Positions 3,172-47,643 of a stretch of 64,000 nucleotides of DNA are shown in pieces. The DNA lies in contig JAUXUI010000032.1 of the NCBI GenBank assembly GCA_030681035.1, forward strand, positions 1-64,000, written 5' to 3'. The notes under the pieces were generated by a model. That model did no database searches. It worked only from the letters and a program-made list of their open reading frames with translations, and was not told the DNA's origin. A program made the position numbers and the translations under genes. The first letter of the stretch is position 1. The number at the start of each line of letters is the position of its first letter. The stretch is from Lysobacteraceae bacterium. GTDB taxonomy: Bacteria; Pseudomonadota; Gammaproteobacteria; Xanthomonadales; Xanthomonadaceae.

Positions 3172-4066
3172 GTCGGATATTGCCGCCGGGATTCACGCCA
3201 CCTCGCAAGCGCTGCGTATCCACAGCGCCGACGGTTTGCTGCTGGCTGCCGAGCGCTGGCCGACGCAAGGGCCCGAGGTGCTGCTGGCACATGGCTTCGG
3301 GCAAACCCGGCAATCGTGGCAGGGCACTGCGGGCAGCCTGCGCGCGAACGGTTACTCGACAATGAGTTTTGACGCCCGCGGCCACGGCGAAAGCGGTCGC
3401 AATGCGCCGATGCAGCGTTACCAACCCGAACAATGGGTCGCCGATCTGCATGCGATCACAGCGCAGGTATCAGGGCCACGGCTGCTGATCGGCGCCTCGA
3501 TGGGCGGCTTGACCGGGTTGATGGCACAGGCCGAACACGCTTTGTTTGATGCCATGGTGCTGGTCGACATCACCCCGCGCTGGGAGGCGGAGGGCTTCGC
3601 CCGCATCGTCGCGTTCATGAGTGCGCACCCGGACGGGTTTGATGACACTGAACATGCCGCCGACGCGATTGCCGGCTACCTGCCGCAACAGCGTGTACGC
3701 AAGCGTCCGGAACAGCTTGCCTCGCTGCTGGTGAAGCGCGACGATGGGCGTCTGGTTTGGCATTGGGACCCGCGCATGCTGACCGACCTACCCATTCAGA
3801 GCGAACCGATCCAGCGCCGCGTGGTCGAAGCTGCGCGGCAGATCACCGTTCCGTTGTTGCTGATCAGCGGTGGCCAAAGCGATCTGGTGTCCGAACAGAC
3901 TGTGGCCGAGTTTCTTGAACTGGTGCCACACGCCCAGCACCGGCGTATCGACAAAGCCAGCCATATGGTGGCTGGCGACGACAATGCGGCCTTCACGGCC
4001 GCCATTCACGCTTTTCTTGCGTCCCCTGCGGCTCGCGCCGCGCTGTGTACCGGAGAACACCGATGA
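3164..4066 (+). CDS. alpha/beta hydrolase
   Basis: A 300-residue alpha/beta hydrolase. Landmarks are LLAHGFGQTRQSW (oxyanion region), FDARGHGESG, and the nucleophile elbow GASMGG with its serine; a late KASHMVAGD supplies the candidate catalytic histidine. The substrate cannot be read; an ester or thioester is likely. I chose the ATG at 3164 because the promoter places the transcript start there and the protein similarity begins there; an in-frame start at 3113 lies upstream of the promoter. The stop overlaps the fadE start (ATGA), so the two form an operon, suggesting a role in handling fatty acyl compounds. Confidence 0.88.
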   Translation: MVKSDIAAGIHATSQALRIHSADGLLLAAERWPTQGPEVLLAHGFGQTRQSWQGTAGSLRANGYSTMSFDARGHGESGRNAPMQRYQPEQWVADLHAITAQVSGPRLLIGASMGGLTGLMAQAEHALFDAMVLVDITPRWEAEGFARIVAFMSAHPDGFDDTEHAADAIAGYLPQQRVRKRPEQLASLLVKRDDGRLVWHWDPRMLTDLPIQSEPIQRRVVEAARQITVPLLLISGGQSDLVSEQTVAEFLELVPHAQHRRIDKASHMVAGDDNAAFTAAIHAFLASPAARAALCTGEHR

Positions 4067-31379: not shown

Positions 31380-33110
31380 TCAACCGGCCTGCAACAACTT
31401 CGCCGCTGGTGGATACGGCGGTACATCAACATAGGCGCCCGATTGCAGTTGCGTGCTCAATGCGGCCCACCACGCGTCATCGAATATCTCGCCATGCGCG
31501 TCATGGAGCGTTTGTTGTTGCGGCTTGTCGAGCCCGAGAAAACGCGGGAACTGCTCCGGAAACACATCGTGCTCGCCAACATGAAACCACGCGCCGTCGG
31601 CAATTTCTTCCTCATGGTGGCGTGCTATCGGCAACTTGCGAAAGCGACATTCGGTGACCAGACACAACTCGTCGTAGTCGTAAAACACGACACGGCCGCT
31701 GCGCGACACACCGAAGTTTTTCAGCAGCAGATCACCCGGAAACAGATTGCTGCGCGCCAGATCCTTGATCGCCTGGCCGTAGTCGAGCAACACCCGCTCG
31801 GCTTCGCTGCACGGCACTTCGCGCAGGTACAGATTCAGCGGCCGCAGGCGGCGCTCGACATAACAATGCAGCAGCACCAGATCATCACCATCGCGCAATA
31901 CCCGCTGGCTGCATTCACCTTCCAGCTCCGCCAGCATTTCATCGTTGAACTGGCTGCGCGAAAAGCGCAGATGGCGAAACTCCTGCACATCGACCAGACG
32001 GCCCACGCGATCATGATGCGCAACCAGCCGGTATTTTTCGTGTACCTGCTCGGGCATCACCGATTTGCCATAACCGAAACGGTCGCGGATCACCTTGAAC
32101 ACGAGTGGATAACTGGGCAGGGTGAACACCGCCATCACCATGCCGCGCACGCCGTCGGCGGTGTGAAACCGCTCATCGCGGCGCAGCTCCAGATGCCGGA
32201 AAAAATGTCGGTAACGCTCGGTCTTGCCCTGCTTGGCACGACCGAGCACGGTGTACAGTTCATCCACCGGTTTGTTCGGCAGCAACGTGCGCAAAAACAC
32301 CACCGCATCGCCGACGGTCGGCAGGTCGGCATGGAAGTAGCTGTGGGTGTAGCCAAACAGGACGGCCACATCATCGGCAGCGGTGAGCAACGCATCGACG
32401 CGCAAGCCGGCATCCTCGTTGACCAGCGCAATCACGCACGGCGCATGGCGTTCGCGGCCGATCACGCGGCCAACCAGATAGGCGCGGCGCTCACGATAGA
32501 ACACGGTTTCCAGCAACTCCACCGCAATCACCGGCAGCGGGCCCCATGCCTGCAAACGCTGCTGCAAGGTCGCGGCAATCGCGCGCGCGCAGCCGCTGGC
32601 ATCACTGAATGGCAGCGCAAACGGATAGTCGGCCAGCACCCGCTCGAACAATGCCGCCAGCCCGGCGGAAGCGACATAACTGTGGCGCGCCACCGGGTGG
32701 GTGATGCGATCGGTCGGCTCGATGTCCAGCGCAACGAACTCGATGCTGGGATCAACACCGCGCGTGCGAAAAAAACGCCGCGTGAGCGTGTTGAAAAACG
32801 TCTTGTACAACTCCGAATCGAGCAGCGGCGCAATGAGTTCAGCGTATTCTCGCGCAACCTGTACCCACAAGGCATGCGCAAAAATGCGCTCGCCCATGCG
32901 TTGTTCCAGACGGGCAAAGGTTTCAGCCACGATCTGGTCGTACAACTCGATGCGTGCCACCGCATCGCGTCGCGCCGCCAGCCAGTCGCGTTTTTCGAAA
33001 TGACGCTGCCCCCGCCGGGTGATATCGGCAAAACGCGCGTTGTAGTCGGCAAAGGCATCCACCAGCAGGCGTGCAGCCTGTTCGGCATGGCGGTTGATGT
33101 GGGCGAGCAT
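31380..33110 (-). CDS. aceK: isocitrate dehydrogenase kinase/phosphatase
   Basis: A 576-residue bifunctional enzyme (578 in E. coli) that phosphorylates and dephosphorylates isocitrate dehydrogenase at one serine, sending isocitrate to the glyoxylate shunt. The regulatory N-terminal domain is followed by the atypical kinase fold, with the ATP-binding LPSYPLVFKVIRDRFGYGKSV and the catalytic region DLARSNLFPGDLLLKNFGVSRSGRVVFYDYDELC. The substrate gene icd lies about 9.6 kb upstream on the same strand, beyond a toxin-antitoxin island. A second copy of its first 55 or so codons lies at 33879-34049. Confidence 0.97.
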   Translation of the reverse strand: MLAHINRHAEQAARLLVDAFADYNARFADITRRGQRHFEKRDWLAARRDAVARIELYDQIVAETFARLEQRMGERIFAHALWVQVAREYAELIAPLLDSELYKTFFNTLTRRFFRTRGVDPSIEFVALDIEPTDRITHPVARHSYVASAGLAALFERVLADYPFALPFSDASGCARAIAATLQQRLQAWGPLPVIAVELLETVFYRERRAYLVGRVIGRERHAPCVIALVNEDAGLRVDALLTAADDVAVLFGYTHSYFHADLPTVGDAVVFLRTLLPNKPVDELYTVLGRAKQGKTERYRHFFRHLELRRDERFHTADGVRGMVMAVFTLPSYPLVFKVIRDRFGYGKSVMPEQVHEKYRLVAHHDRVGRLVDVQEFRHLRFSRSQFNDEMLAELEGECSQRVLRDGDDLVLLHCYVERRLRPLNLYLREVPCSEAERVLLDYGQAIKDLARSNLFPGDLLLKNFGVSRSGRVVFYDYDELCLVTECRFRKLPIARHHEEEIADGAWFHVGEHDVFPEQFPRFLGLDKPQQQTLHDAHGEIFDDAWWAALSTQLQSGAYVDVPPYPPAAKLLQAG

Positions 33111-33267
33111 GGCTCAGTGTAGTACACGCGTCAGAGGTTAAATCTCTGGTCGGTCCAAAGCTGCTCAGTTGTCGAATGCTCGGGGTTGCCGTGCAAAAAT
33201 CATGCTTGTCGCAATGATCGTGGCGCGATTCCACGCCCACTCCAACCAAAACTCTGGATTCCCCAAC

Positions 33268-33549
33268 TCACAGGCCAAGTTCGCTATGCGAACCGAGGCG
33301 CACGAGTTGCAACACGGTGTCATCGGGCTTGCGATAAATCAGCACCAAGTCGGGTTTGACATGGCAATCCCGATAGTCTTTCCAATCGCCGCTCAAGGCA
33401 TGGTCACAGTGCTTTTCGGCCAATGCCTGATTGTTTGCCAACGCCGCGACGATGGCAACGAAATCACGTTGCAGCACTTGGCGGTGCGGGCCTTTAGCTT
33501 CGCGTTTGAGGTCTCGCTTGAATTGCCCGGACTGTTTAATCGTCCGCAT
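33268..33549 (-). CDS. yafQ: YafQ/RelE-type mRNA interferase toxin
   Basis: A 93-residue toxin of the YafQ branch of the RelE superfamily (MRTIKQSGQFKRDLKREAKGPHRQVLQRDFVAIVAALANNQALAEKHCDHALSGDWKDYRDCHVKPDLVLIYRKPDD). The histidines and aspartates of HALSGDWKDYRDCHVKPDLVLIYR match the ribosome-dependent YafQ nuclease. The ATG at 33549 lies inside the last codons of dinJ (14-base overlap), the normal dinJ-yafQ arrangement. Confidence 0.9.
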   Translation of the reverse strand: MRTIKQSGQFKRDLKREAKGPHRQVLQRDFVAIVAALANNQALAEKHCDHALSGDWKDYRDCHVKPDLVLIYRKPDDTVLQLVRLGSHSELGL

Positions 33550-33796
33550 CGAGCACCGCTTGAAGTTCATCGAGTGACACGGCTTCCAGCTTGCCACGAC
33601 GCGCTTCCTTCATGGCTTCGATGGTCGTGGCGTTCGGCACCATCGGCTCGAAGGGCAACGCCTTCTCGTGTGCGACACGAGTGAGCAGGATGCGGAACGC
33701 ATCCGACACGGTCAGACCCATCGCGGCGAGTACAACACTCGCCTCTTCCTTGATGTGCTCGTCGATGCGCGCACGGACAACGGCATTTGCAGACAT
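33536..33796 (-). CDS. dinJ: DinJ/RelB-type antitoxin
   Basis: An 86-residue antitoxin with a ribbon-helix-helix N terminus (MSANAVVRARIDEHIKEEASVVLAAMGLTVSDAFRILLTRVAHEKALPFEP) and a toxin-binding tail (ATTIEAMKEARRGKLEAVSLDELQAVLDADD). It follows a strong GGAGGAG; the frame upstream belongs to the aceK fragment. It should neutralise YafQ and repress its own promoter; GAGC/GCTC arms about 35 bases upstream are a weak candidate operator. Confidence 0.9.
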   Translation of the reverse strand: MSANAVVRARIDEHIKEEASVVLAAMGLTVSDAFRILLTRVAHEKALPFEPMVPNATTIEAMKEARRGKLEAVSLDELQAVLDADD

Positions 33797-33878
33797 GATG
33801 TGCTCCTCCAACATACGTGAGCCACATTGTAGCTCAATGCGACGAACGATGCGCTGAATGGGTTTCGCATGAGCTGAC

Positions 33879-34049
33879 TTACAACTCAATGCGCGCCACC
33901 GCATCGCGCCGTGCCGCCAGCCAGTCGCGTTTTTCGAAATGACGCTGCCCCCGCCGGGTGATATCGGCAAAACGCGCGTTGTCGTCGGCAAAGGCATCGA
34001 CCAGCAGGCGTGCAGCCTGCTCGGCATGGCGGTTGATGTTGTTGGGCAT
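33879..34049 (-). pseudogene. aceK: duplicated 5' fragment of aceK
   Basis: About 57 codons (NINRHAEQAARLLVDAFADDNARFADITRRGQRHFEKRDWLAARRDAVARIEL) nearly identical to residues 4-56 of the intact aceK, ending in a stop where similarity breaks off at TACAACTC. The match extends about 10 bases upstream of the start. The dinJ-yafQ pair lies exactly between this fragment and the intact gene, so the module is bracketed by direct repeats of about 170 bases. Confidence 0.92.
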
Positions 34050-34100
34050 GGCCCAGTGTAAAGGCAGCCGCGTCGGACGTATCCATGCTCGCATTCGACA

Positions 34101-34152
34101 GCAAGCGCGGGAGCCCGCTACAACGCTGGATCAACGAAACTGGGGCCAGTCG
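34101..34152. repeat. 52-base direct repeat, left copy
   Basis: 44 of 52 bases match 41038-41089, in the same orientation. At the right copy this sequence holds the last codons of brnA (DWPQSR) and its downstream flank; here the same codons read DWPQFR and follow a transposase fragment. The left copy may therefore be a relic of a lost brnA. Confidence 0.75.
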
Positions 34153-34447: not shown

Positions 34448-34630
34448 ATGAGCAGCGCGGCACTGATCAAGCAACTGGAACACGATGGTTGGGTGCTGCG
34501 TGGCGGCAAGGGCAGCCACCGGGTATTCCGCCACCCCACCAAGCTGGGCCATATCAGCGTCCCGCACCCGAAGAAAGATCTCGGTACCGGCCTCGTCCAC
34601 AAGCTGCTCAAGCAAGCCGGGCTGAAGTAA
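34448..34630 (+). CDS. hicA: HicA-type mRNA interferase toxin
   Basis: A 60-residue HicA: SSAALIKQLEHDGWVLRGGKGSHRVFRHPTKLGHISVPHPKKDLGTGLVHKLLKQAGLK, with the GSHRVF histidine of the family. It begins at an ATG that coincides with the predicted transcript start, so it is probably translated from a leaderless mRNA. hicB starts 10 bases downstream after AAGGAG. Confidence 0.92.
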   Translation: MSSAALIKQLEHDGWVLRGGKGSHRVFRHPTKLGHISVPHPKKDLGTGLVHKLLKQAGLK

Positions 34631-34640
34631 GGAGAACACC

Positions 34641-35063
34641 ATGAAGTTTCTGATCGCCATCGAACAGGGCACCGAGCGCACCGCCTTCGGCGTCATCGTG
34701 CCGGATCTGCCCGGCTGTTTTTCTGCCGGCGATACTCTGGAAGAAGCCTTCAGCAATGCCGTCGAAGCCATCGACGGCCATATCGAGATACTGATCGAGG
34801 ATGGCGCCAGCGTACCCGCGCCGGCCGACCCCGCCGTACACATGGCGGATCCCGATTACGCGGGCATGGCCTGGGGTTACGTCGACGCACCGATCGAGCG
34901 CTACCTCGGCCCGGCGCAAAAAATCAACATCACCGTGCCGGCGTTCGCGCTGCGCCGCATCGACGAATACGCCCGCCGCCACGGCTTGAGTCGCTCCGGG
35001 TTCCTGGTCGATGCAGCCAACCGGGTCATCGCAGCGGCCGGCGCGCCACCCGTGCAAGGTTGA
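34641..35063 (+). CDS. hicB: HicB-type antitoxin with ribbon-helix-helix domain
   Basis: A 140-residue HicB. The N-terminal part (FLIAIEQGTERTAFGVIVPDLPGCFSAGDTLEEAFSNAVEAIDGHIE) binds HicA. The C-terminal part (INITVPAFALRRIDEYARRHGLSRSGFLVDAANRVIAA) is a ribbon-helix-helix DNA-binding domain. Broken copies of this C-terminal domain occur at 35727 and 40842. It is followed within 32 bases by the HigB-like toxin gene. Confidence 0.93.
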   Translation: MKFLIAIEQGTERTAFGVIVPDLPGCFSAGDTLEEAFSNAVEAIDGHIEILIEDGASVPAPADPAVHMADPDYAGMAWGYVDAPIERYLGPAQKINITVPAFALRRIDEYARRHGLSRSGFLVDAANRVIAAAGAPPVQG

Positions 35064-35094: not shown

Positions 35095-35415
35095 ATGGAA
35101 ATCCGCCACTACCTCGACCCGCAAGGACGCGACGTATACCAGGCGTGGGTGGATGGGCTGAAGGATCCGATCGGCCGCAAGGCCGTTGTCCGGCGCGTGC
35201 TGCGGATCGAGCTGGGCAACTTCGGCGACCACAAGTTTGTGCGCGACGGCGTGTCCGAGTTGCGCATCGATGCAGGTCCGGGCTACCGCCTGTACTACGC
35301 GCAGGACGGCGATCGGATAGTCCTGTTGTTGTGCGGCGGCGACAAGGGGTCGCAGCAGCGCGACATTGACCGCGCCGTGGCCTGCTGGCACGACTACCAA
35401 CGGAGGATCCGATGA
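35095..35415 (+). CDS. RelE/HigB-like addiction module toxin (COG3657 type)
   Basis: A 106-residue protein: EIRHYLDPQGRDVYQAWVDGLKDPIGRKAVVRRVLRIELGNFGDHKFVRDGVSELRIDAGPGYRLYYAQDGDRIVLLLCGGDKGSQQRDIDRAVACWHDYQRR. This is the killer-protein family of phage-derived RelE-like toxins. Its stop overlaps the antitoxin start by ATGA. I chose the ATG at 35095 right after the operator-like palindrome; the longer frame overlaps hicB. Confidence 0.9.
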   Translation: MEIRHYLDPQGRDVYQAWVDGLKDPIGRKAVVRRVLRIELGNFGDHKFVRDGVSELRIDAGPGYRLYYAQDGDRIVLLLCGGDKGSQQRDIDRAVACWHDYQRRIR

Positions 35416-35729
35416 CCCAGCCCTATCGCAGCCATGCCGAAGCGACGGCAGAGATGTTCCGCCGCGACCCGGACTTCGCCGCCGATTACCTCGACAGCCT
35501 GCTGGCCGATGGCGATCAGGCAGACCTTATGCTGGCCCTGCGCCACATGGCGGACGCCTTCGGCGGCGTGCCCAAGATCGCCGAACAGGCGCAACTCAAC
35601 CCGACCACGCTCTATCGCACGCTCTCCCGCGCGGGCAACCCCGAGCTGCGCAGCTTGTCGGCGATCCTCGGCGCGATGGGGTTGCGGATAGCCATCCAGC
35701 CGGTCGGGAAACCCGCCGTCACGGCTTGA
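35412..35729 (+). CDS. HigA-like addiction module antitoxin (COG3636 type)
   Basis: A 105-residue antidote: HAEATAEMFRRDPDFAADYLDSLLADGDQADLMLALRHMADAFGGVPKIAEQAQLNPTTLYRTLSRAGNPELRSLSAILGAMGLRIAIQ. The helix-turn-helix is PKIAEQAQLNPTTLYRTLS. It pairs with the toxin just upstream through a 4-base overlap. Its last codons run into a broken hicB tail. Confidence 0.9.
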   Translation: MTQPYRSHAEATAEMFRRDPDFAADYLDSLLADGDQADLMLALRHMADAFGGVPKIAEQAQLNPTTLYRTLSRAGNPELRSLSAILGAMGLRIAIQPVGKPAVTA

Positions 35730-35874
35730 GCCGCTCCGAGTTCCTGGTCGATGCTGCAAACAGGGTCATGGGCGCAGGCGATGCGCCTGATCACGCCAAC
35801 GCCTGAAGCGCTGCCGCCAGGGCATGGGGTTGGCCACCACGCGTAACTGCGAATCCTGGGTGTCCGGGGCTTTC
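35714..35874. repeat. 160-base direct repeat, left copy
   Basis: Closely similar to 40866-41023 in the same orientation. It contains a hicB ribbon-helix-helix tail and about 80 further bases (GAAGCGCTGCCGCCAGGGCA onward) that are not in the intact hicB locus. The transposase fragment starts where the match ends. Confidence 0.8.
35727..35806 (+). pseudogene. hicB C-terminal remnant
   Basis: Codons reading LSRSEFLVDAANRVMGAGDAPDHANA and a stop, matching the end of the intact HicB at 34976-35063. No start or N-terminal domain remains. It overlaps the last codons of the HigA-like antitoxin, pointing to a recombination junction. Confidence 0.8.
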
Positions 35875-40796: not shown

Positions 40797-40841
40797 TCGC
40801 ACGCGGCGCGACAGTGAGCGCGCCGTGAGGTGCTTGCTCTG

Positions 40842-40955
40842 CGCCGCACTGACGAATACGCACACCGCCACAGCCTGAGCCGCTTCGGGTTTCTGGTCGA
40901 TGCGGCCAACCGGGTCATCGCCGCAGGCGATGCGCCTGATCACGCCAAAGCCTGA
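40842..40955 (+). pseudogene. hicB C-terminal remnant
   Basis: RRTDEYAHRHSLSRFGFLVDAANRVIAAGDAPDHAKA and a stop match the ribbon-helix-helix tail of the intact HicB. No start or N-terminal half. Bases 40273-40606 upstream hold nothing else I can name. Confidence 0.8.
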
Positions 40956-41023
40956 AGCGCTGCCGCCAAGGCATGGGGTTGGCCACCGCGCGTGACTGCG
41001 AACACTGGGTGTCCGGGGCTTTT
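40866..41023. repeat. 160-base direct repeat, right copy
   Basis: Partner of 35714-35874. Similarity continues through GTGTCCGGGGCTTTT and stops there. The shared non-coding half suggests that both remnants come from one ancestral hicB locus with its downstream flank. Confidence 0.8.
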
Positions 41024-41037
41024 CTTTTCCTTCAACG

Positions 41038-41089
41038 GCAAACGCAGGAGCCTGCTACGGCCCTGTATCAACGAGACTGGGGCCAGTCG
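41038..41089. repeat. 52-base direct repeat, right copy
   Basis: Partner of 34101-34152. It overlaps the last codons of brnA. Confidence 0.75.
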
Positions 41090-42713: not shown

Positions 42714-44042
<1,329 letters not shown>

Positions 44043-44232
44043 TGGGGTCCTCCCGGGATTGAGCTGTGCCGCGTCCATGCCACTGGCGCGGTTGAATGCT
44101 GCGGTGAATGTCGTTGGACAAGCACACCATTGTCGCGGTTCCTGCGCCTGAGGTGAAGCACCAAACAACGGCATCGTGTCTTGGCACCCGAACGCGTTAG
44201 ACTTGTCGATTGCCTGAATCGTTTTGAAGCGC

Positions 44233-47643
<3,411 letters not shown>

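Follow-up and report, generated by a model that had tools for sequence, protein, structure and literature searches.

A dinJ-yafQ toxin-antitoxin module between two copies of the aceK 5' end: a probable old insertion with long target duplication

The toxin-antitoxin (TA) pair dinJ-yafQ lies between two copies of the aceK 5' end in the window (the whole stretch of DNA analysed, 64,000 nt), and this arrangement is probably the product of an old insertion with long target duplication (ILTD). The structure recurs: nine TA modules were found, this one included, that lie between duplicated pieces of a neighbouring gene, the piece being one end of the gene in eight cases and an internal segment in one. 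Four of the nine are in the genome that carries the window.

The aceK repeat, its module and the surrounding island

The intact aceK gene (31380..33110, minus strand) codes for an isocitrate dehydrogenase kinase/phosphatase of 576 amino acids (Pfam AceK_kinase E 1e-104, AceK_regulatory E 4e-98) that shares 94% amino acid identity with the protein of the nearest congener, G002. A repeat search of the window showed that the start of the gene is present twice, as a direct repeat of 181 nt with 93% identity, 12 mismatches and a start-to-start distance of 939 nt. The live copy (32941..33121, minus strand) comprises aceK codons 1-56 and the 11 nt located 5' of the start codon. The dead copy (33880..34060, minus strand) is a 5' fragment (MPNNINRHAEQ...ARIEL) with the change Y23D, and both copies end at TACAACTC. 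The sequence-only reading had set the limits at codons 4-56 plus about 10 bases upstream, which was nearly right, and the Y/D difference that it reported at codon 23 was confirmed when the copies were compared. Beyond the 181 nt the similarity of the fragment may continue for about 12-18 nt with gaps, a weak signal (p 0.03-0.14). A search of the whole genome with the repeat matched these two places (E 3.8e-92 and 4.4e-74) and no other, indicating that it is neither a chance similarity nor a dispersed repeat.

As the same reading proposed, the TA module fills the space between the copies (33122..33879, 758 nt), where the ORF list and Pfam revealed no other recognisable gene. The antitoxin gene dinJ (33536..33796, minus strand; RelB family, 86 amino acids, Pfam RelB E 9e-20) precedes the toxin gene yafQ (33268..33549, minus strand; Pfam YafQ_toxin E 1.9e-29), which overlaps its end. 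Pfam matches and ORF coordinates place both genes on the same strand as aceK, and the order, overlap and common strand of a RelB-family antitoxin and a YafQ toxin match the layout of a type II TA system. In dinJ-yafQ systems the toxin cleaves mRNA at the ribosome and DinJ neutralises the toxin. The ORF list and Pfam contained no site-specific integrase or transposase between the repeats, the module has no terminal inverted repeats (p 0.44), and an Rfam scan of the window gave no matches. Upstream of aceK, near the inserted pair, only weak promoter-like and terminator-like matches were detected.

The region from aceK to an isocitrate dehydrogenase-like gene (42717-44525, named from its sequence alone) is a TA island and a hot spot for TA insertion. 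Next to dinJ-yafQ it contains a 59-nt remnant of the brnA 3' end (34094..34152, minus strand; 83% identity to 41031-41089 in the repeat search, brnA being named from its translation), a hicAB module (34450..35063, plus strand; HicB_lk_antitox E 4.6e-41, HicA_toxin match at 34463-34624), a higBA-like module (35095..35729, plus strand; Gp49/dnstrm_HI1420 by Pfam), a hicB 3'-end copy and a transposase remnant, as well as a TonB-dependent receptor, a second hicB 3'-end copy, brnTA and a parDE-like pair. The repeat search identified a second module-bracketing repeat here, since the higBA-like module lies between the live hicB 3' end (34972..35047, plus strand) and a 76-nt fragment of it with 83% identity (35712..35787, plus strand). 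Altogether the hicB 3' end occurs three times in the island and the brnA 3' end twice (34940-35047, 35680-35873, 40829-41089, 34094-34152), a pattern that would fit the copying of an ancestral convergent hicB/brnA junction and its splitting by later insertions. In the congeners, the aceK side is occupied by a different higBA-like pair (G002), a receptor fragment (G003) or other aceK neighbours (G001).

Unoccupied sites and the age of the copies

The sequence-only reading had called for a search of other genomes, both for empty aceK loci and for dinJ-yafQ joined to aceK fragments. Empty loci were found: the congeners G001, G002 and G003 have one aceK 5' end each and no dinJ-yafQ at aceK. The aceK fragment was absent from about 80 other aceK loci, among them 50 from public genomes. 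As the insertion is present in one genome only, the event was not caught young. Modules joined to pieces of aceK were not found in the other genomes, which were sampled at one per species. An integrative element that carries a replacement start, one of the two origins put forward at the outset, gained no positive support, since an integrase and terminal inverted repeats are lacking and such joined modules were not found elsewhere.

The 12 sites at which the copies differ were polarised against G002. Seven changes were derived in the live copy, five of them synonymous, and five in the fragment, where three alter an amino acid, one is synonymous and one falls in the noncoding part, so the polarisation rests on small numbers (7 + 5 changes). 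Residue 23 is Tyr in 49/49 aceK orthologs examined and Asp in the fragment. Because the live copy has changed almost only synonymously and the fragment has lost an invariant Tyr, the repeat appears to be an old scar rather than a recent import. The fragment evolves like a dead sequence that has been decaying since the copies separated. Both copies are about equally distant from G002, and they have derived changes in common, e.g., Gly34 where G001, G002 and G003 have Ala. Compared with G002, the live aceK 5' end gives 86.9% and the remaining part of aceK gives 87.8%, hence the gene is not a mosaic. Judged by these comparisons, the copies appear to be sister sequences that arose in the carrier lineage, or in a close sister of it, after the split from G002. 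The idea that the second copy came from another strain is neither needed nor supported by the polarised differences, which make the copies sisters equally far from G002. The upstream flanks of the two copies were compared with G002 to tell which copy is native, but neither matched above chance, and G002 has its own TA insert nearby.

Copied gene ends around other TA modules

YafQ, BrnT, Gp49/HigB and HicA loci from the family and the order (Lysobacterales) were searched for bracketing direct repeats. Apart from the two cases in the window, the carrier genome (G000) has a copied GMC oxidoreductase 3' end around phd-vapC (76 nt, 95%; contig C69) and a copied Lrp 3' end around a ParE-like ORF and a yafQ-like relic (111 nt, 93%; contig C16), identities that rest on a Pfam match below the cut-off (E 0.008) for the ORF and on recognition by eye for the relic. 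In other genomes, a copied STELLO glycosyltransferase 3' end encloses dinJ-yafQ (132 nt, 92%; G190), and brnTA modules are enclosed by the dinJ 5' end (133 nt, 92%; G027), the tilS 5' end (92 nt, 83%; G003), the parC 3' end (114 nt, 85%; G062) and a segment of an M16 peptidase gene (285 nt, 93%; G119). The last case is irregular, and as it lacks the gene start it fits a simple target duplication poorly. The glycosyltransferase site is unoccupied in G442 and G206, where the 3' end occurs once and the module is absent. The Lrp site of G000 (L340, G000:C16, 482-2128), with its ParE-like ORF, yafQ-like C-terminal relic and copied Lrp 3' end, has a counterpart in the congener G001, where an Lrp-type regulator is followed by dinJ-yafQ (L051, G001:C271, 8581-9457); one TA pair has apparently been replaced by another.

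The frequency of such pairs was compared between TA loci and control loci using one filter (70-300 nt, at least 80% identity, gap 450-1200). The control loci, which contained aceK and cold-shock genes and added up to 629 kb, yielded 0 pairs, and the TA loci yielded pairs in 25/194, attC arrays and duplicate fetches included. After curation, 9 sites among about 180 distinct TA loci against 0/106 control loci correspond to a one-sided chance of about 0.015, a value to be read with the facts that the window was picked for this feature, that some contigs were picked for holding TA genes, that the control loci are more conserved regions than the TA loci and that the repeats were sorted by eye. Inspection by eye removed about half of the first repeat matches, which proved to be integron attC sites or dispersed repeats. 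Six loci dropped from the count were integron cassettes (L148, L156, L210, L295, L296 and L323), four were dispersed repeats (L145, L158, L182 and L134) and two were paralog pairs (L301 and L173). Integron-like attC arrays with brnTA among the cassettes were observed in G027 (L295, L296 and L297, on contigs C42, C18 and C14) and in G124 (L323, on contig C23).

In about 1.38 Mb of stretches from G000, G002 and G003, four repeats that copy part of a gene enclosed a TA module or relic, and two (L401 and L344) enclosed other sequence. At L401 (G002:C14), the 3' part of a VIT/VWA-domain gene is present in two copies (1441-1614 and 2598-2771; 174 nt, 83%) that enclose a small ORF with no Pfam match. 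At the end of a Wenzhouxiangella contig (L099), the aceK 3' end is repeated around non-TA genes (1408-1520 and 3503-3615; 113 nt, 96%), an arrangement that could reflect either target duplication during an insertion or an artefact of the contig end. Since L401, L344 and L099 bracket no recognised TA module, the structure is not confined to such modules. The carrier genome also contains two CRISPR-like repeat arrays (L380, G000:C13, about 5.8-6.9 kb; L386, G000:C20, about 15.4-16.7 kb).

Origin of the structure and comparison with known systems

That the aceK start was duplicated around the module, the other origin put forward at the outset, is the option that fits best, given the sister copies, the dead fragment and the absence of a mosaic; the molecular step is one that we infer. 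DNA carrying the TA pair would have joined the chromosome at about aceK codon 56 without an integrase, through the joining of broken ends or template switching. The target would have been duplicated either when long staggered ends were filled in or when a template switch copied it twice, and the duplication would leave one full aceK surviving. The insertions seen would be only those whose duplication rebuilds the host gene. Where the gene is rebuilt, an insertion into a coding region does no harm, and this would account for the position of the scars at gene ends. Near-identical repeats would be lost by recombination, with deletion of the module, or broken in assemblies, so that the surviving scars would be diverged ones. 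The insertion would also have deprived aceK of its original upstream region beyond 11 nt. The gene now follows yafQ on the same strand at a distance of 157 nt, and read-through from the autoregulated dinJ promoter may occur.

The main rival to ILTD is homologous import from a close strain, which would lead to the same end product and which we consider unlikely. Donor DNA with dinJ-yafQ and an aceK start, either linear or a circle formed by repeat recombination in another strain, would have recombined with the resident aceK start, each partner contributing one repeat copy. A single crossover within the 181 nt yields exactly the structure observed, and an origin from two strains would account for the divergence seen in all nine repeats (83-95%). 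Furthermore, the phd-vapC site is occupied in both G000 and G002 (L283, G000:C69 versus L410, G002:C30), with both repeats present; the modules are 98% identical and the left flanks about 90%, a difference that suggests a recent exchange between the two species and leaves room for module exchange between lineages. However, at aceK the equal distance of the copies from G002, the unmixed live gene and the loss of constraint in the fragment all speak against import, as does the lack of aceK-joined dinJ-yafQ elsewhere, although with one genome per species a donor could be missed. It is more doubtful still that TA modules act as autonomous gene-end cassettes. In such a cycle, recombination between the repeats would excise the module together with one gene end as a circle, which would re-enter the same gene in another cell via that end, the copied end serving as a home-made attachment site and the host gene staying whole.

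It is improbable that two independent events were at work, in which the aceK start first underwent a small tandem duplication and a TA module then landed between the copies. Short tandem duplications are common and the interval between aceK and icd attracts TA insertions, but unrelated events would not be expected to place the module precisely at the boundary of the copies, as is seen at aceK and at eight further sites, and no relative among the aceK loci examined has a tandem aceK start without a module. An assembly artefact of a short-read metagenome bin, which the sequence-only reading had named as its refuter, is very improbable even with congeners that are MAGs and a carrier genome in 144 contigs, because the copies are 7% diverged (12/181 sites) in a codon-structured pattern, and less fragmented assemblies show the same structure (about 20 contigs in G190, 9 in G062).

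ILTD was described for restriction-modification systems by Kobayashi and co-workers, with target repeats whose length varies and is on the order of 100 bp (PMC3874152, PMC3031569; Nobusato et al. 2000 and Furuta et al. 2010, both as cited in PMC3874152). TA systems are discussed in PMC3874152, and in the part of that paper bearing on ILTD the structure is reported only for restriction-modification systems. A 2020 review gives the mechanism of TA-system integration as unknown (PMC7167474), and a search of open-access papers, with subscription papers mostly outside its coverage, returned no report of an ILTD-type structure for TA modules.

The ILTD preferred here for aceK resembles the published cases in that a small selfish-type module without its own transposase or integrase (at aceK, 758 nt with dinJ-yafQ only), as at the other TA sites, is bracketed by long and variable target repeats (181 nt and 93% at aceK, 76-285 nt across the TA cases) and has relatives with an empty single-copy site, as found in the aceK and glycosyltransferase cases. 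It departs from them in its cargo (a type II TA pair rather than a restriction-modification system, although the mechanism is not defined by its cargo), in the divergence of the copies (83-95%) and in the host group, Lysobacterales. Among integrative elements, those that rebuild the end of the gene they target, such as tRNA-gene islands and ICEs, likewise duplicate a gene end and keep the host gene whole. In contrast to them, the aceK insert has no integrase in its 758 nt and no shared short att core, the target differs in each TA case, and the repeat is longer and variable. TA-carrying integron cassettes (G027 and G124) also have direct repeats of about 90-110 nt around TA modules, but attC sites are palindromic and common to all cassettes, whereas the aceK repeat is coding sequence present twice in the genome, which rules out a cassette at aceK. 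TA modules are a different cargo in a known ILTD-type structure, and it is the recurrence, more than the modest single site, that earns interest. The copied gene-end scars hint at how TA pairs enter chromosomes, and their recurrence at nine sites, two with empty relatives, opens this entry to testing and places TA modules alongside restriction-modification systems, for which the same structure has been described.
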